Program-made: the position numbers and the translations under genes
The notes under the pieces: model-generated
What the model saw: only the letters and a program-made list of their open reading frames with translations
Told to the model about the DNA's origin: nothing
Databases searched by the model: none
IMG/VR virus record: IMGVR_UViG_3300038701_001112
Span: 1-31,727 of that record
Strand: one strand, 5' to 3'
Length of the DNA: 31,727 nt
DNA from: a virus
In this document: positions 4,031-14,758 of the stretch, piece after piece
How positions within the stretch are numbered: the stretch's first letter is position 1
How the letters are laid out: the number at the start of each line of letters is the position of its first letter

Positions 4031-4771
4031 TTGGCCGGGGACTGGATCGCAATGTCGGTTGACCTTCACGAAACGGAAGAGGTTCTTGCGCTGGCGGACA
4101 CGCTCGGCGTTGACGACTTCTCCGTCGTAGGCAGGCTTCACCGCATGTGGTCCTGGATCGACAAGAACACCATAGACGGCGAGGGAATACGCATCTCCGA
4201 CCGCCGGATCGACAAGCTCGTCGGTCTGGACGGGTTCGCTGCGGCCCTACGCCATGTCGGGTGGCTTGATGGAAGCGATGGTGAAATAACCATCCCCAAG
4301 TTCGATCGCTGGAATGGCGGAACCGGCAAGGAGAGGGCGCGCGGTCGCAAGCGTACCGCGAAGCACAGGGGCAAGGGGCCCGATGTAACGGTCCGACCGT
4401 TACCAGAGAACAGTACAGGACAGAAGAAAACCAAAACCAAAGAGCGCGGCGTCGCCGCGTCGGGGTTCGATTGGTCGAGGGCTCCGGCTGAGATGCGGAC
4501 GCAGGCTGTGCGTGACGCGTGGGGGCGTTGGTGCGCGTACCGGCGTGAGGCGAAGCTGGGTCACTGGAAGCCGGTCACGCTGCTCGCCAATCTCCGCAAG
4601 TTCGTGGAGGCCGGGCTGGGCGGTGACGCGTGGGCGTCGTGTGTTGACGAGGCGATCAGCAACGGGTGGCGGGGTGTGTTCGTTCCGAAGGGTGGGGGGA
4701 AACAGGGCGCTCGCGGCGACGCGGGCGGCGAGTACGAGTTTGACTTTGATGACAAGGAGAAACGGGCATGA
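4031..4771 (+). CDS. phage replication initiator, O-like (DNA-binding N-terminus)
   Basis: The 246-residue protein resembles a phage family with the N-terminal pattern DWIxMxVDLHxxxEVxxLA, then VVGRLHRMWSWIDKNTIDG, a winged-helix-like region and a WLDGSDG...IPKFDRWNG block (residues 1-100). A basic, disordered linker (100-140) precedes a C-terminal domain of about 90 residues. Family members sit next to DnaC-like loaders and are regarded as lambda O-type origin-binding proteins. I chose the TTG start because GGAGG (4019-4023) lies 7 bases upstream, whereas the ATG at 4052 has no ribosome-binding sequence and would remove the conserved DWI. A 21-bp palindrome shared with the 13.7-13.9 kb region lies inside the linker-coding part (4384-4404). 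Confidence 0.72.
   Translation: MAGDWIAMSVDLHETEEVLALADTLGVDDFSVVGRLHRMWSWIDKNTIDGEGIRISDRRIDKLVGLDGFAAALRHVGWLDGSDGEITIPKFDRWNGGTGKERARGRKRTAKHRGKGPDVTVRPLPENSTGQKKTKTKERGVAASGFDWSRAPAEMRTQAVRDAWGRWCAYRREAKLGHWKPVTLLANLRKFVEAGLGGDAWASCVDEAISNGWRGVFVPKGGGKQGARGDAGGEYEFDFDDKEKRA
4384..4404 (+). repeat. 21-bp palindrome inside the initiator gene (iteron-like, copy A)
   Basis: The half-sites are TGTAACGGT and ACCGTTACC around a 3-base centre. The left and right arms match three sites in the 13.69-13.86 kb non-coding region, and the six bases after it (AGAGAA) are identical to those after copy D at 13837-13857. It is followed by an A-rich stretch. Its position in the disordered linker-coding part of an O-like gene parallels the lambda origin inside gene O. 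Confidence 0.65.
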
Positions 4772-5440: not shown

Positions 5441-5481
5441 CCACGCCACGTAAAGCCGCCGCACCGGAGCCCACCAAATGA
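5383..5481 (+). CDS. hypothetical 32-residue peptide overlapping the zinc-ribbon gene out of frame
   Basis: The ATG at 5383 has a near-perfect AAGGAG (5369-5374) 8 bases upstream, the best ribosome-binding sequence in this area. The frame ends in an ATGA overlap with the DnaC-like gene. The peptide has a hydrophobic-acidic N-terminal helix and a basic Pro/Ala-rich end. An internal ATG at 5437, overlapping the previous stop codon, would give a 14-residue version. It may serve mainly to deliver ribosomes to the loader gene, which lacks a good site of its own. Confidence 0.45.
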   Translation: MGEIKLVESVLVEVGAQAMTTPRKAAAPEPTK

Positions 5482-6098
5482 CAGCAACCGCCATCAACCA
5501 GCACCGGCTCCGCATCGCACAACGCGCCGCACAGTGCGGGTTCCCCCGCCGTCACTGCGACGAACTCGGGTACGAACGCGCCGCCATCACACGCGAGCAG
5601 GAGGCCGGGTGGAAACGGCTCTGGCACGCGATCCGATCCGGCGGCACCGTCTACTTCTACGGCGGGTTCGGCGTGGGAAAGACGATCCTCGCGGCGGCGG
5701 TCGCCTTCCACTGGATCGACAAGCGGGACCGCAACCAGCTCCCGGCGAACGTGAAGGGGCTCCCCCGCTACTGGACGGCGCGCCAGCTCTTCGACGAACA
5801 GCTCGCGTGGCAGAAGGCGAACACGGACCGCGAGTCACCCGTGAAGCTCGCGGAGCGTGTGGGGTTCCTTGTGATCGACGAGCTGGGGCAATCGCGTTTC
5901 ACGGACTTCCAGAGCACGGAGATCAGCGGGATCGTTGACACGAGGTACACGAACCGCCGCCCGACGCTGTTGATTGCGAACGAGTCACCCCAGGCGATAG
6001 CGAAGCTGGGCCTGTCGCCGCTGGTCCTTGACCGGACGCGCGAGGGTGGTGCGGTGATCGACGCGAGCGGGTGGCCGAACATGAGGAGGCAGGAATGA
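5478..6098 (+). CDS. DnaC-like AAA+ ATPase, putative helicase loader
   Basis: The 206-residue protein has a Walker A motif GGFGVGKT (62-69), a Walker B motif FLVIDE (130-135), a sensor I strand TLLIANES (163-170) and an arginine-rich C-terminal end, the layout of DnaC/DnaI-type loaders. It is a little shorter than bacterial DnaC (about 245). With the O-like initiator just upstream and no helicase gene in the window, its likely role is to load the host replicative helicase at the phage origin. The start at 5478 overlaps the upstream small ORF by 4 bases. Confidence 0.85.
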   Translation: MTATAINQHRLRIAQRAAQCGFPRRHCDELGYERAAITREQEAGWKRLWHAIRSGGTVYFYGGFGVGKTILAAAVAFHWIDKRDRNQLPANVKGLPRYWTARQLFDEQLAWQKANTDRESPVKLAERVGFLVIDELGQSRFTDFQSTEISGIVDTRYTNRRPTLLIANESPQAIAKLGLSPLVLDRTREGGAVIDASGWPNMRRQE

Positions 6099-12778: not shown

Positions 12779-13003
12779 ATGCCAGTGCTGAAGGATGGGT
12801 GGTGCATGTTCGTCAGAGGCGTGCATGGCGATTGGGTTTGGCGTAGGGGGGCGTGGTGGCACAGGCACACACATCGGCGGGTCACGCGGGGGCATCGCAT
12901 CGCGGAACTTGAGAGAGTCAAGCGGGCGCGTATCAGGGAGATCCTGCGTCACAACAGAGACACGGCGAGCGAGTGCATAACGATCGCCGGGGGCGGATCA
13001 TGA
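12779..13003 (+). CDS. hypothetical small basic protein
   Basis: A 74-residue protein, very basic and Trp-rich (WVWRRGAWWHRHTHRRVTRGH), possibly nucleic-acid binding. Two starts are possible: ATG at 12779 with GGAGG 7 bases upstream, or GTG at 12773 overlapping the upstream stop. I prefer the ATG. The Arg-rich helix from residue 42 supports a DNA or RNA contact, but this is inference. Confidence 0.5.
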   Translation: MPVLKDGWCMFVRGVHGDWVWRRGAWWHRHTHRRVTRGHRIAELERVKRARIREILRHNRDTASECITIAGGGS

Positions 13004-13323
13004 AACCCATCCCCCCGTCCTTCATCGTCGAGACCGTCATCGAAGAACTCGGGGCCGACCCCGACGAGGTGCTGTCCGATCGGCGGTCGCCCTTCGCCGT
13101 CTTCACACGGCGCGCCATCGCCTACCTGTGCCGCGAACTCTCCGACGCGAGCTTCCCCGAGATCATGGTGGCGATGCAGAAGGACCGGGGCGGTCACTCG
13201 GCGGCGGCCGGGTACGACCGGGCGATGCGGGAGCTGATCGCGCTCGACCCCACCGCGAAGGCCCGCGTCGAATCGCTGGCCTTGATCGTGCGTGGGAGGT
13301 GGGGGATGGAGGTGGCGGCGTGA
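13000..13323 (+). CDS. DnaA domain IV-like DNA-binding protein (second copy)
   Basis: The 107-residue protein aligns well by eye with the C-terminal DNA-binding domain of DnaA. IVETVIEELGADPDEVLSDRRS matches the DnaA helix followed by L-x-S-x-R-R, RRAIAYLCREL matches the R-x-(I/M)-A-x-x-L-x-(K/R)-E-L helix, and SFPEIMVAMQKDRGGHSAAAG matches S-x-P-E-I-(G)...GGRDHTTV. His is kept in the signature; the Arg-Asp order is altered. It lacks the DnaA ATPase domains. It lies just before a perfect DnaA box (13587-13595), so it may bind the phage origin or modulate host DnaA there. Confidence 0.72.
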   Translation: MKPIPPSFIVETVIEELGADPDEVLSDRRSPFAVFTRRAIAYLCRELSDASFPEIMVAMQKDRGGHSAAAGYDRAMRELIALDPTAKARVESLALIVRGRWGMEVAA

Positions 13324-13358
13324 CGCTGCGGTATGATAAAGCAACAGGAGGCACGACC

Positions 13359-13610
13359 ATGATTGAGCGAGTGATGAGGCGTTTGGGGTACCAGAAGATC
13401 CGCCCGCTGCCGGATTCTTACCTGCTTATTCGCGGGTGCAAAGTCACGATCGGTTCGGGCCAGAGTATTGACGAGGTGGTAGTCGGCGTTGGCGGGGGGA
13501 TTGAGTACGAGTCTGGCCACGATTCTCTATGTGACCTGGAGGCTTGCGAGCGGGCCCGGCACCACCTGCGAAACACGCAGTCGGACTTATCCACACCAGA
13601 GCACGGGTAG
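13359..13610 (+). CDS. hypothetical small protein, last gene of the early block
   Basis: An 83-residue protein. I chose the ATG at 13359 because AGGAGG lies 7 bases upstream; an in-frame GTG at 13320 would overlap the previous stop codon. The product looks beta-rich (LLIRGCKVTIGSG, EVVVGVGGGIEY) with a helical end. A perfect DnaA box and the first 11-bp repeat lie within its last eight codons. Confidence 0.55.
   Translation: MIERVMRRLGYQKIRPLPDSYLLIRGCKVTIGSGQSIDEVVVGVGGGIEYESGHDSLCDLEACERARHHLRNTQSDLSTPEHG
13587..13595 (+). promoter_or_regulatory. perfect DnaA box
   Basis: TTATCCACA matches the classical DnaA box consensus TTATNCACA exactly. It lies at the very end of the upstream gene and immediately before the 11-bp repeats, an AT-rich stretch and palindromes. 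One chance match in a window this size is possible, so the meaning rests on its position. Confidence 0.6.
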
Positions 13611-13630
13611 CACATGGGTGGAGTACGTTT
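13598..13630 (+). repeat. tandem array of three 11-bp repeats (locus 1)
   Basis: The units are AGAGCACGGGT, AGCACATGGGT and GGAGTACGTTT, directly abutting. With the four units at 23112-23155, the consensus is R-G-M-R-Y-A-Y-G-G-K-T, with G2, A6, G8 and T11 invariant in all seven. The 11-base period places each unit on the same face of the helix, as expected for a protein-binding array. The array begins inside the stop region of the upstream gene. Confidence 0.65.
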
Positions 13631-13685
13631 GACGCTACCTATTTGAGAAACTTTGTAACAAGGGAATCCGCGAACAACACCCGAA

Positions 13686-13706
13686 TGTAACGCTCCGAGC
13701 GTTACA
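13686..13706 (+). repeat. 21-bp perfect palindrome (copy B)
   Basis: TGTAACGCT and AGCGTTACA flank a CCG centre; the two 9-base arms are exact complements. It shares TGTAACG...CGTTAC with copies A (4384), C (13814) and D (13837). Confidence 0.75.
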
Positions 13707-13813
13707 CAACCACCGCCGGTGGTGACGACGCGCCGCGCGAGCGCGACGAAAACCGCCGCGAAACGCGCCGCGAACACCGCGAAAAAACCCCGATCCCAGC
13801 GCGTCAGGGCCGA

Positions 13814-13834
13814 TGTAACGCTTCGACCGTTACA
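13814..13834 (+). repeat. 21-bp imperfect palindrome (copy C)
   Basis: TGTAACGCT and ACCGTTACA around TCG. Only 2 bases separate it from copy D, so their centres are 23 bp apart, about two helical turns, which would allow side-by-side dimer binding. The bases before it (CCGA) also precede copy A. Confidence 0.75.
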
Positions 13835-13836
13835 TG

Positions 13837-13857
13837 TGTAACGGTTGGACCGTTACC
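13837..13857 (+). repeat. 21-bp imperfect palindrome (copy D)
   Basis: TGTAACGGT and ACCGTTACC around TGG. It differs from copy A in the initiator gene only in the 3-base centre, and both are followed by AGAGAA and a purine-rich run. Copies A and D thus share at least 27 bases with few differences. Confidence 0.75.
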
Positions 13858-13923
13858 AGAGAAGAGAAGAGGAGAGGGAACTACGTTCCCCCCCTCGGTC
13901 CCCCCCGCCAAGTTTCGATCGGC

Positions 13924-13952
13924 TTGACGAATTCATTTCGCTGTGCTACGGT
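13924..13952 (+). promoter_or_regulatory. candidate sigma-70-type promoter for the late genes
   Basis: TTGACG (13924-13929) and TACGGT (13947-13952) are separated by 17 bases, with TGC just before the -10 as in an extended -10 element. It lies 107 bases upstream of the first late gene and after the polypurine tract. The -35 is strong and the -10 weak. Confidence 0.5.
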
Positions 13953-13977
13953 GAAAGTGGGAGGGGAGACCCTTCCG

Positions 13978-13995
13978 CCTGCGTCCCCCCGCAGG
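13978..13995 (+). promoter_or_regulatory. stem-loop in the late leader
   Basis: A 6-bp stem CCTGCG/CGCAGG with loop TCCCCC lies between the candidate promoter and the first late gene. No T run follows, so simple termination is unlikely; a leader structure is possible. Confidence 0.35.
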
Positions 13996-14059
13996 TCCTC
14001 GGATAAATACCCGATTGCCTGTTCCAACAAATAATGGAACAGCGGGACCCGAGGAAACG

Positions 14060-14758
14060 ATGACCAAGAGACTTCTGGCGTTGGCGGCTACCGCCATTCT
14101 TGTGATCGGGCTCGTTTCGTGCGGACCCGAGAGACAAGCTCAGAAATACCGCGAACTCGCCGAGACTTCGATCTCGATGTCCGAGACGATCTCCGGTGTT
14201 CTCGAACGGTACCCCGCAGGGCAGTACGAGGGCAACGCGCTCCTGGAACCCCTGCTCGCCGCACTCCCCGAGAAATGGCACGACGACCTGGACGGGTACA
14301 TCGGCATCGCCGGTGACGTTCGTGCGGGTGCGACCGCTGCGGCGCTCGGCCTCGCCGATCTCGCCGAGAACCTTGAGGAACGTGCGGTCGAGATGGACGC
14401 TCAGGCCGAGAAGGACGCGGGGTTCTGGGGGGATCTGGTTGCGACCGGATCGCAGCTCGTTCAGGCGTTCTCGGGACCGGGCGGCATCGCTGGCCTGATC
14501 GGTGGTGTGATCGTGGCGGTGCGTGAGCGCCGCAAGACAGCCGCCGTGGTGGAGAGCATCGAGGCTGGCCGGAAGTTTGATCCCGCGCTCAACGCCGCGT
14601 TCAGCGGACAGGGTGGCGCTGCGGTCAACGTGGGGCTCACAGCTCGCGGCGTGAAGGCTCGCGTTAGCAAGATCCGCGAGAAGTACGGCAAGGCGTCGCC
14701 GGACAACGTGCCGGTAGTCTCGAATCAGAAGCCGAGCGAAACCGAACCCGCTTCGTAA
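14060..14758 (+). CDS. predicted lipoprotein with second hydrophobic segment (lysis-associated?)
   Basis: The 232-residue protein begins MTKRLLALAATAILVIGLVSC, a signal peptide with lipobox LVSC and Cys21. A second hydrophobic, Gly-rich stretch (SGPGGIAGLIGGVIVAV, about 147-163) is followed by a basic segment (RERRK), as in a membrane anchor. The rest is helical. Being the first late gene, and followed by two other membrane-anchored proteins, suggests a lysis or envelope role. I do not recognise the family. The ATG at 14060 is preceded by GAGGAAA and gives an ideal signal peptide. Confidence 0.65.
   Translation: MTKRLLALAATAILVIGLVSCGPERQAQKYRELAETSISMSETISGVLERYPAGQYEGNALLEPLLAALPEKWHDDLDGYIGIAGDVRAGATAAALGLADLAENLEERAVEMDAQAEKDAGFWGDLVATGSQLVQAFSGPGGIAGLIGGVIVAVRERRKTAAVVESIEAGRKFDPALNAAFSGQGGAAVNVGLTARGVKARVSKIREKYGKASPDNVPVVSNQKPSETEPAS

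Follow-up and report, generated by a model that had tools for sequence, protein, structure and literature searches.

In bacteriophage lambda, the origin lies within gene O and consists of the O iterons followed by an AT-rich tract that opens, and the system comprises the O initiator and a helicase loader (PMC7466680). It has been asked for years whether such an origin, embedded as it is in gene O, accepts O protein provided in trans (PMC6022878). The SPP1 phage has two sites about 13 kb apart, both of which are bound by gp38: oriL is part of gene 38, and oriR belongs to a noncoding segment of the late gene region (PMC6316719). Rac also has an active origin, oriJ (PMC3945230). The literature search found no paper or experiment mapping oriJ to the repeats of ydaU, although older work on oriJ may already describe these repeats; the palindrome discussed below was found in no paper, and the purine tract that follows it in none with a phage context.

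The window analysed here is the whole of the IMG/VR virus record IMGVR_UViG_3300038701_001112, a linear stretch of 31,727 bp that probably represents an incomplete virus genome. A search of GenBank phages for near DNA relatives of the record returned none, and GC skew is of little use for placing the origin because the main genes are all on one strand. The sequence comparisons described below suggest that the intergenic stretch at the early/late junction is very probably a phage replication start site. We estimate a probability of roughly 0.72 that 13.68–13.91 kb is the main origin, of the lambda-like iteron type and displaced from the initiator gene to this junction. An origin between the early and late genes had been proposed in the initial annotation, and this proposal is strongly supported, as the palindromes and the purine tract are conserved together with the cognate initiator family. 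The same reading overlooked a fourth palindrome within the initiator gene, which is key to the function of the locus. The features are listed in Table 1.

Table 1. Features of the candidate origin and of the associated genes (positions in the window).
Feature	Position	Strand	Remarks
O-like initiator gene (Rac YdaU-like, PHROG 2509)	4031–4771	+	TTG start with GGAGG; 246 aa; predicted N-terminal winged helix
Fourth palindrome, GTAACGGTCCGACCGTTAC	4385–4403		+354 of the initiator gene; 10.6 bits
Degenerate purine-rich tract and hairpin CGCGGCG-t-CGCCGCG after the in-gene palindrome	4404–4460	+	
DnaC-like helicase loader	5478–6098	+	PHROG 50, E 1.5e-22
Small protein, DnaA domain IV-like helix-turn-helix	13000–13323	+	PF08299, E 8e-9
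Perfect DnaA box TTATCCACA	13587–13595	+	Inside ORF 13359–13610; role unsupported
AT-rich stretch upstream of palindrome 1	13618–13680		GC minimum 35% (40-bp windows)
Iteron palindrome 1, GTAACGCTCCGAGCGTTAC, arms perfect	13687–13705		Same 19-mer class within the initiator gene of about 100 phages
Iteron palindrome 2, GTAACGCTTCGACCGTTAC	13815–13833		
Iteron palindrome 3, GTAACGGTTGGACCGTTAC	13838–13856		23 bp from palindrome 2; spacing recurs in relatives
Conserved GTTACCAGAGAAGAGAAGAG core and purine tract	13852–13880	+	nhmmer 44.4 bits, E 1.9e-13 for 13813–13880
Hairpin GGGAAC-tac-GTTCCC (GGGAACtacGTTCCC) at the purine-tract end	13876–13890		Post-tract hairpins enriched in relatives

Four copies of the palindrome GTAACGSTYSGASCGTTAC are present, at 13687, 13815 and 13838 in the intergenic segment and at 4385 in the initiator gene, and a search of the record that allowed three mismatches gave no further one. 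Counted over two strands this amounts to 8 matches, far beyond chance given a shuffle mean of 0.04. The three intergenic copies, which had been described as 21-bp palindromes, measure 19–22 bp. The polypurine tract noticed earlier is 23 nt long (13858–13880), contains purines only, and is the sole purine or pyrimidine run of at least 18 nt in the record; together with the core that precedes it, it is a probable unwinding or loading element. The AT-rich stretch at 13627–13667 has a GC content of 36.6%, in agreement with the 37 percent reported; across the record, nine stretches contain 40-bp windows at or below 40% GC, this one included. The wider stretch is a possible accessory unwinding region. 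A CCCCCC(T)-N-CCCCCC motif is found 3' of the purine tract, both here (13886–13906) and in many relatives, where it often pairs with a G run as a hairpin.

The early block was said to encode an O-like initiator and a DnaC-like loader, and the genes found match PHROG 2509 and PHROG 50, the combination of an initiator with a dedicated helicase loader that characterizes lambda-type replicons. The start of the initiator was set at the TTG at 4031, since this aligns with the MAGDWI of the relatives and has a GGAGG just upstream. The protein matches PHROG 2509 (replication initiation protein) with an E value of 4e-41 and is only distantly O-like (PHROG 678, E 5e-8); it is 31% identical to VW-6S and 26% identical to Rac YdaU. 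The relatives found with tblastn include Rac YdaU and the initiators of Pseudomonas, Xanthomonas, Escherichia, Klebsiella and Salmonella phages, while Pfam gave zero matches for the initiator and likewise for Rac YdaU, and a sequence search of solved structures returned no convincing match. The AlphaFold model contains a confident N-terminal domain of the winged-helix type, a fold that is compatible with DNA binding but not diagnostic. In a fold search, this domain matched RepA-type initiators (5kbj, 4pql, 4pt7, 4pta) with Z scores of 4.5–4.9 and CRP-type regulators with Z scores up to 5.7, and an assignment to the RepA type was rejected as not specific, the RepA-type matches being no better than the CRP-type ones.

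The palindromes are tied to this initiator family in independent genomes. IMG/VR was scanned blind with the palindrome, using DNA only, and 102 of the 119 stretches thus selected carry an initiator-family ORF (Rac YdaU-like, PHROG 2509) with the palindrome inside it or at its 5' edge; in one further stretch the initiator lies just outside the fetched DNA, beside the palindrome. When 44 whole records were searched, the palindromes of each record lay within about 400 bp of one another, with the exception of G021. Of the 12 GenBank relatives examined, nine have, near +150 and +360 of the initiator gene, palindromes of the GTAACG-N7-CGTTAC type or closely similar ones; two (Uetakevirus) have GTCCGC-type repeats (GTCCGCATnnnATGCGGAC-type) at the same place with the purine tract kept, and one Vibrio phage has neither of these two repeat types in the gene. 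The exchange of the repeats with retention of the tract in Uetakevirus is expected if site and initiator co-evolve. The genetic association of palindrome and initiator family makes the palindromes the putative binding site of the initiator. Palindromes of the GTCCGCATnnnATGCGGAC class, in most cases with the same purine tract, occur in L008 (3354–3372), L013 (3369–3387), L326, L353, L355, L395, L411, L427 and L433, and as judged from their sequences the initiators of this class are a natural swap of specificity between initiator and site. In L383 and L409, where the usual repeats are missing, the initiator gene contains other palindromes (GCTGTTCTTTCAGAACAGC and GAACCGGCTGCGCCGGTTC), which are perhaps further site classes.

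The order of the elements is conserved as well. In the relatives, 19-bp palindromes are followed by CGTTACC[A/T][A/G]AGAAGAGAAGAG and often by a hairpin, and the intergenic segment of the record has this full layout, with three palindromes (two of them 23 bp apart), tract and hairpin. The 23-bp spacing was found in 20 pairs among the collected loci, a count that includes the pair of the window and in which some loci share a record. The CGTTACC[A/T][A/G]AGAAGAGAAGAGAAGAG element is conserved as DNA and includes TTA and AGA codons, which GC-rich members of the family seldom use, and the tract is retained even though the palindrome sequence changes. This near-invariance points to a part that is read by shared machinery and not by the specific initiator. 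Hairpins with arms of at least 6 follow the tract in 42% of 90 relatives, as compared to 6–10% in control segments and shuffles, and those with arms of at least 8 in 22% versus 1–2% in controls, while their sequence is unconserved. A DNA profile was built from 54 non-redundant in-gene cores of relatives, with the record itself excluded. In addition to the intergenic core listed in Table 1, it detects 13682–13708 with 16.2 bits, and the best of 100 shuffled records reaches 4.9 bits. Thus, as in a YdaU-type replicon, a PHROG 2509 initiator is accompanied by 19-bp palindromes and a GTTACC-purine core; the in-gene core that is usual in such replicons, and maybe not required, scores only 10.6 bits.

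It is the position of the good array that sets this record apart, 9.3 kb from the in-gene site and away from the usual in-gene position. An in-gene core of at least 25 bits is present in 204 of 212 initiator-bearing loci, most of which were chosen by DNA pattern. Among loci chosen by protein only, 75 of 76 have an in-gene core of at least 20 bits, some of them on contigs that overlap those already counted, and the same threshold is reached in 75 of 108 loci of a third sample, chosen by a protein-coding motif. The remaining loci in that sample mostly retain the purine tract within the gene or have palindromes of another kind there, while both are missing from a few. The sole exception among the 76 is IMGVR_UViG_3300030329_001685, which recurs among the remaining loci of the third sample as L403, and whose initiator gene (100–756) is without a core, and whose cores are found at about 9.4 kb (40.9 bits) and about 13.4 kb (43.8 bits), the latter between the genes of the small and large terminase subunits. 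In the tree both displaced phages fall in one unresolved polytomy, which fits one or two displacements. Synteny was compared with ten terminase relatives (31–55% identity), and the palindrome is absent from all ten. Several other candidates for displacement were rejected: L061 has an intact in-gene core, and its single distant GTAACGCTGCCAGCGTTAC (1368–1386), at 4.5 kb from that gene, lacks a purine tract; the core-like match in L166 is due to chance, the gene of L182 is split, and L195 is at a contig edge.

At the DNA level, the intergenic core is most similar to the core that L150 carries in its initiator gene (82% over 62 bp, E 2e-10), with L165 reaching an equal score, and the initiator closest by pairwise identity is also that of L150 (47% over 129 columns). 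As L150 is nearest for both, the intergenic array most likely descended from an in-gene origin within this same lineage. It could alternatively be the dead fragment of a second initiator gene gained by recombination, and one of its frames does read RCNASTVTCVTVGPLPEKRRGEG, which resembles the linker of the initiator family. However, the resemblance to the gene is limited to the origin segment, the DNA motif alone accounts for the peptide, and the motif is better preserved here than in the intact gene, which makes such a remnant unlikely.

The palindrome within the gene has perfectly matching inverted arms, and a 40-bp segment that includes it is 85% identical to the 13838 copy. The upstream palindrome and the clean purine tract have been lost. 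Position 4385 is the putative ancestral origin, and its palindrome might still act; the degenerate tract and hairpin that follow may be a relic or a weak second origin. The displaced origin is perhaps one of a pair resembling oriL and oriR of SPP1. In a scheme of this kind, a single initiator would serve two origins, theta replication would start at 4385, and the intergenic array would either serve as a late origin or stall forks and thereby trigger the switch to concatemer synthesis. With a single in-gene site and an array located 9.3 kb from it, the layout parallels that of SPP1, and the record encodes an exonuclease, an Erf-type annealing protein, an SSB and a weak RusA-type match, the kind of set that the SPP1 switch needs. 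On the other hand, the in-gene copy reaches only 10.6 bits and has lost its neighbouring elements, and in the other displaced phage the initiator gene is entirely without a core. We therefore consider this scheme possible but doubtful, and prefer a main origin in the intergenic segment, where the firing copy would be the intergenic rather than the in-gene one.

The location of the array upstream of the late genes also raises the question of whether its palindromes might be operators for late transcription, bound by the initiator or another regulator, and not an origin. By eye, an element resembling TTGACg-N17-TACGGT is discernible near 13924, but a promoter scan of 12900–14200 gave zero sigma-70-like sites, and a promoter role leaves unexplained why the tract and the 23-bp spacing match the in-gene arrays of relatives. 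Operators in place of an origin thus seem quite improbable.

The proposed initiator-plus-DnaA mechanism does not hold up well. It would require that the DnaA box and three abutting 11-bp repeats are functional, with the DnaA domain IV protein as a helper, and it is favoured by one perfect box shortly 5' of the AT-rich stretch and by the DnaA domain IV-like gene upstream. The box itself is real, a perfect TTATCCACA at 13587 and the only TTATNCACA of the record, although a perfect TTATNCACA arises in 10% of shuffled records and its role as an origin part found no support. It is held by the 3' end of ORF 13359–13610 (83 codons with an AGGAGG ribosome-binding site), which reads D-L-S-T-P, and an oriC-like cluster of boxes is absent from the record. 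The 11-bp repeats match one another at 8, 4 and 7 of 11 positions, and 38 positions of the record score equally high, which is the level of chance. In 130 relatives, 3 boxes (0.095 per kb) were found in the first 250 bp 3' of the core versus 0 to 0.11 per kb elsewhere, so that boxes are not enriched near the core. The palindromes and the purine tract of the array are conserved in relatives, and the DnaA box is not. A DnaA-dependent origin is accordingly the least likely of the explanations weighed here. A perfect box TGTGGATAA does lie just after the core in L083, L124 and L132 (about 70–85 bp) and in L013, too few for enrichment. The DnaA domain IV-like gene is genuine as reported, and nothing ties it to the origin; it encodes a phage protein that is almost wholly a DnaA domain IV-like helix-turn-helix, and it is located just upstream of the record's sole perfect DnaA box.

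For the preferred intergenic origin, a mechanism can be suggested by analogy with lambda and SPP1. The 246-aa initiator would bind the 19-bp palindromes via its N-terminal winged helix, probably as a dimer, upon which the adjacent GAGAAGAGAAGAG purine tract, bounded by the hairpin, would open, and the DnaC-like loader would place DnaB, the helicase of the host, on the exposed strand. The lone 4385 palindrome with its degenerate tract would represent the ancestral in-gene origin, which may by now be a mere relic, serve in autoregulation or act as a weak second origin. More generally, there is about an even chance that a widespread origin class, made up of exchangeable 19-bp palindromes, a near-invariant GAGAAGAGAAGAG tract and a variable hairpin, can leave its initiator gene, and that two or more phages carry it as a free module located at the late genes or close to them, possibly with two-origin replication. 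If true, free origin modules would provide a natural test of whether the linkage of origin and initiator is required, and a natural phage with an origin 9 kb from its initiator gene would make the in-trans question directly testable. In addition, the DNA profile locates candidate origins for hundreds of phages and prophages, and the records examined annotate no origin for most of these.

Compared with the known systems, the record shares with lambda ori a common plan, predicted here from sequence alone, of putative initiator-binding repeats followed by a tract that would open, with an O-type initiator and a loader, but it differs in the repeat sequence, in the GA-rich nature of the tract (AT-rich in lambda) and in the position of the array outside the initiator gene. 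Rac ydaU/ydaV resembles it in initiator family, GTAACGCTnnnAGCGTTAC palindromes, CGTTACCAGAGGAAGAGGAAGAG tract and a downstream loader gene, and since oriJ is active and ydaU contains the same in-gene array, Rac was counted in favour of the origin reading; however, its palindromes are inside or just upstream of ydaU and its tract is inside the gene, whereas the good array of the record is 9.3 kb away. IMGVR_UViG_3300030329_001685 has the same initiator family and cores away from the gene, although its initiator gene is core-free and it has two displaced cores instead of one. By analogy, the oriL/oriR pair of SPP1 is the closest known parallel, with sites both in the phage's own initiator gene and in a distant noncoding segment, while the SPP1 repeats are unrelated direct repeats, and it is in our record that the distant copy is the better one.
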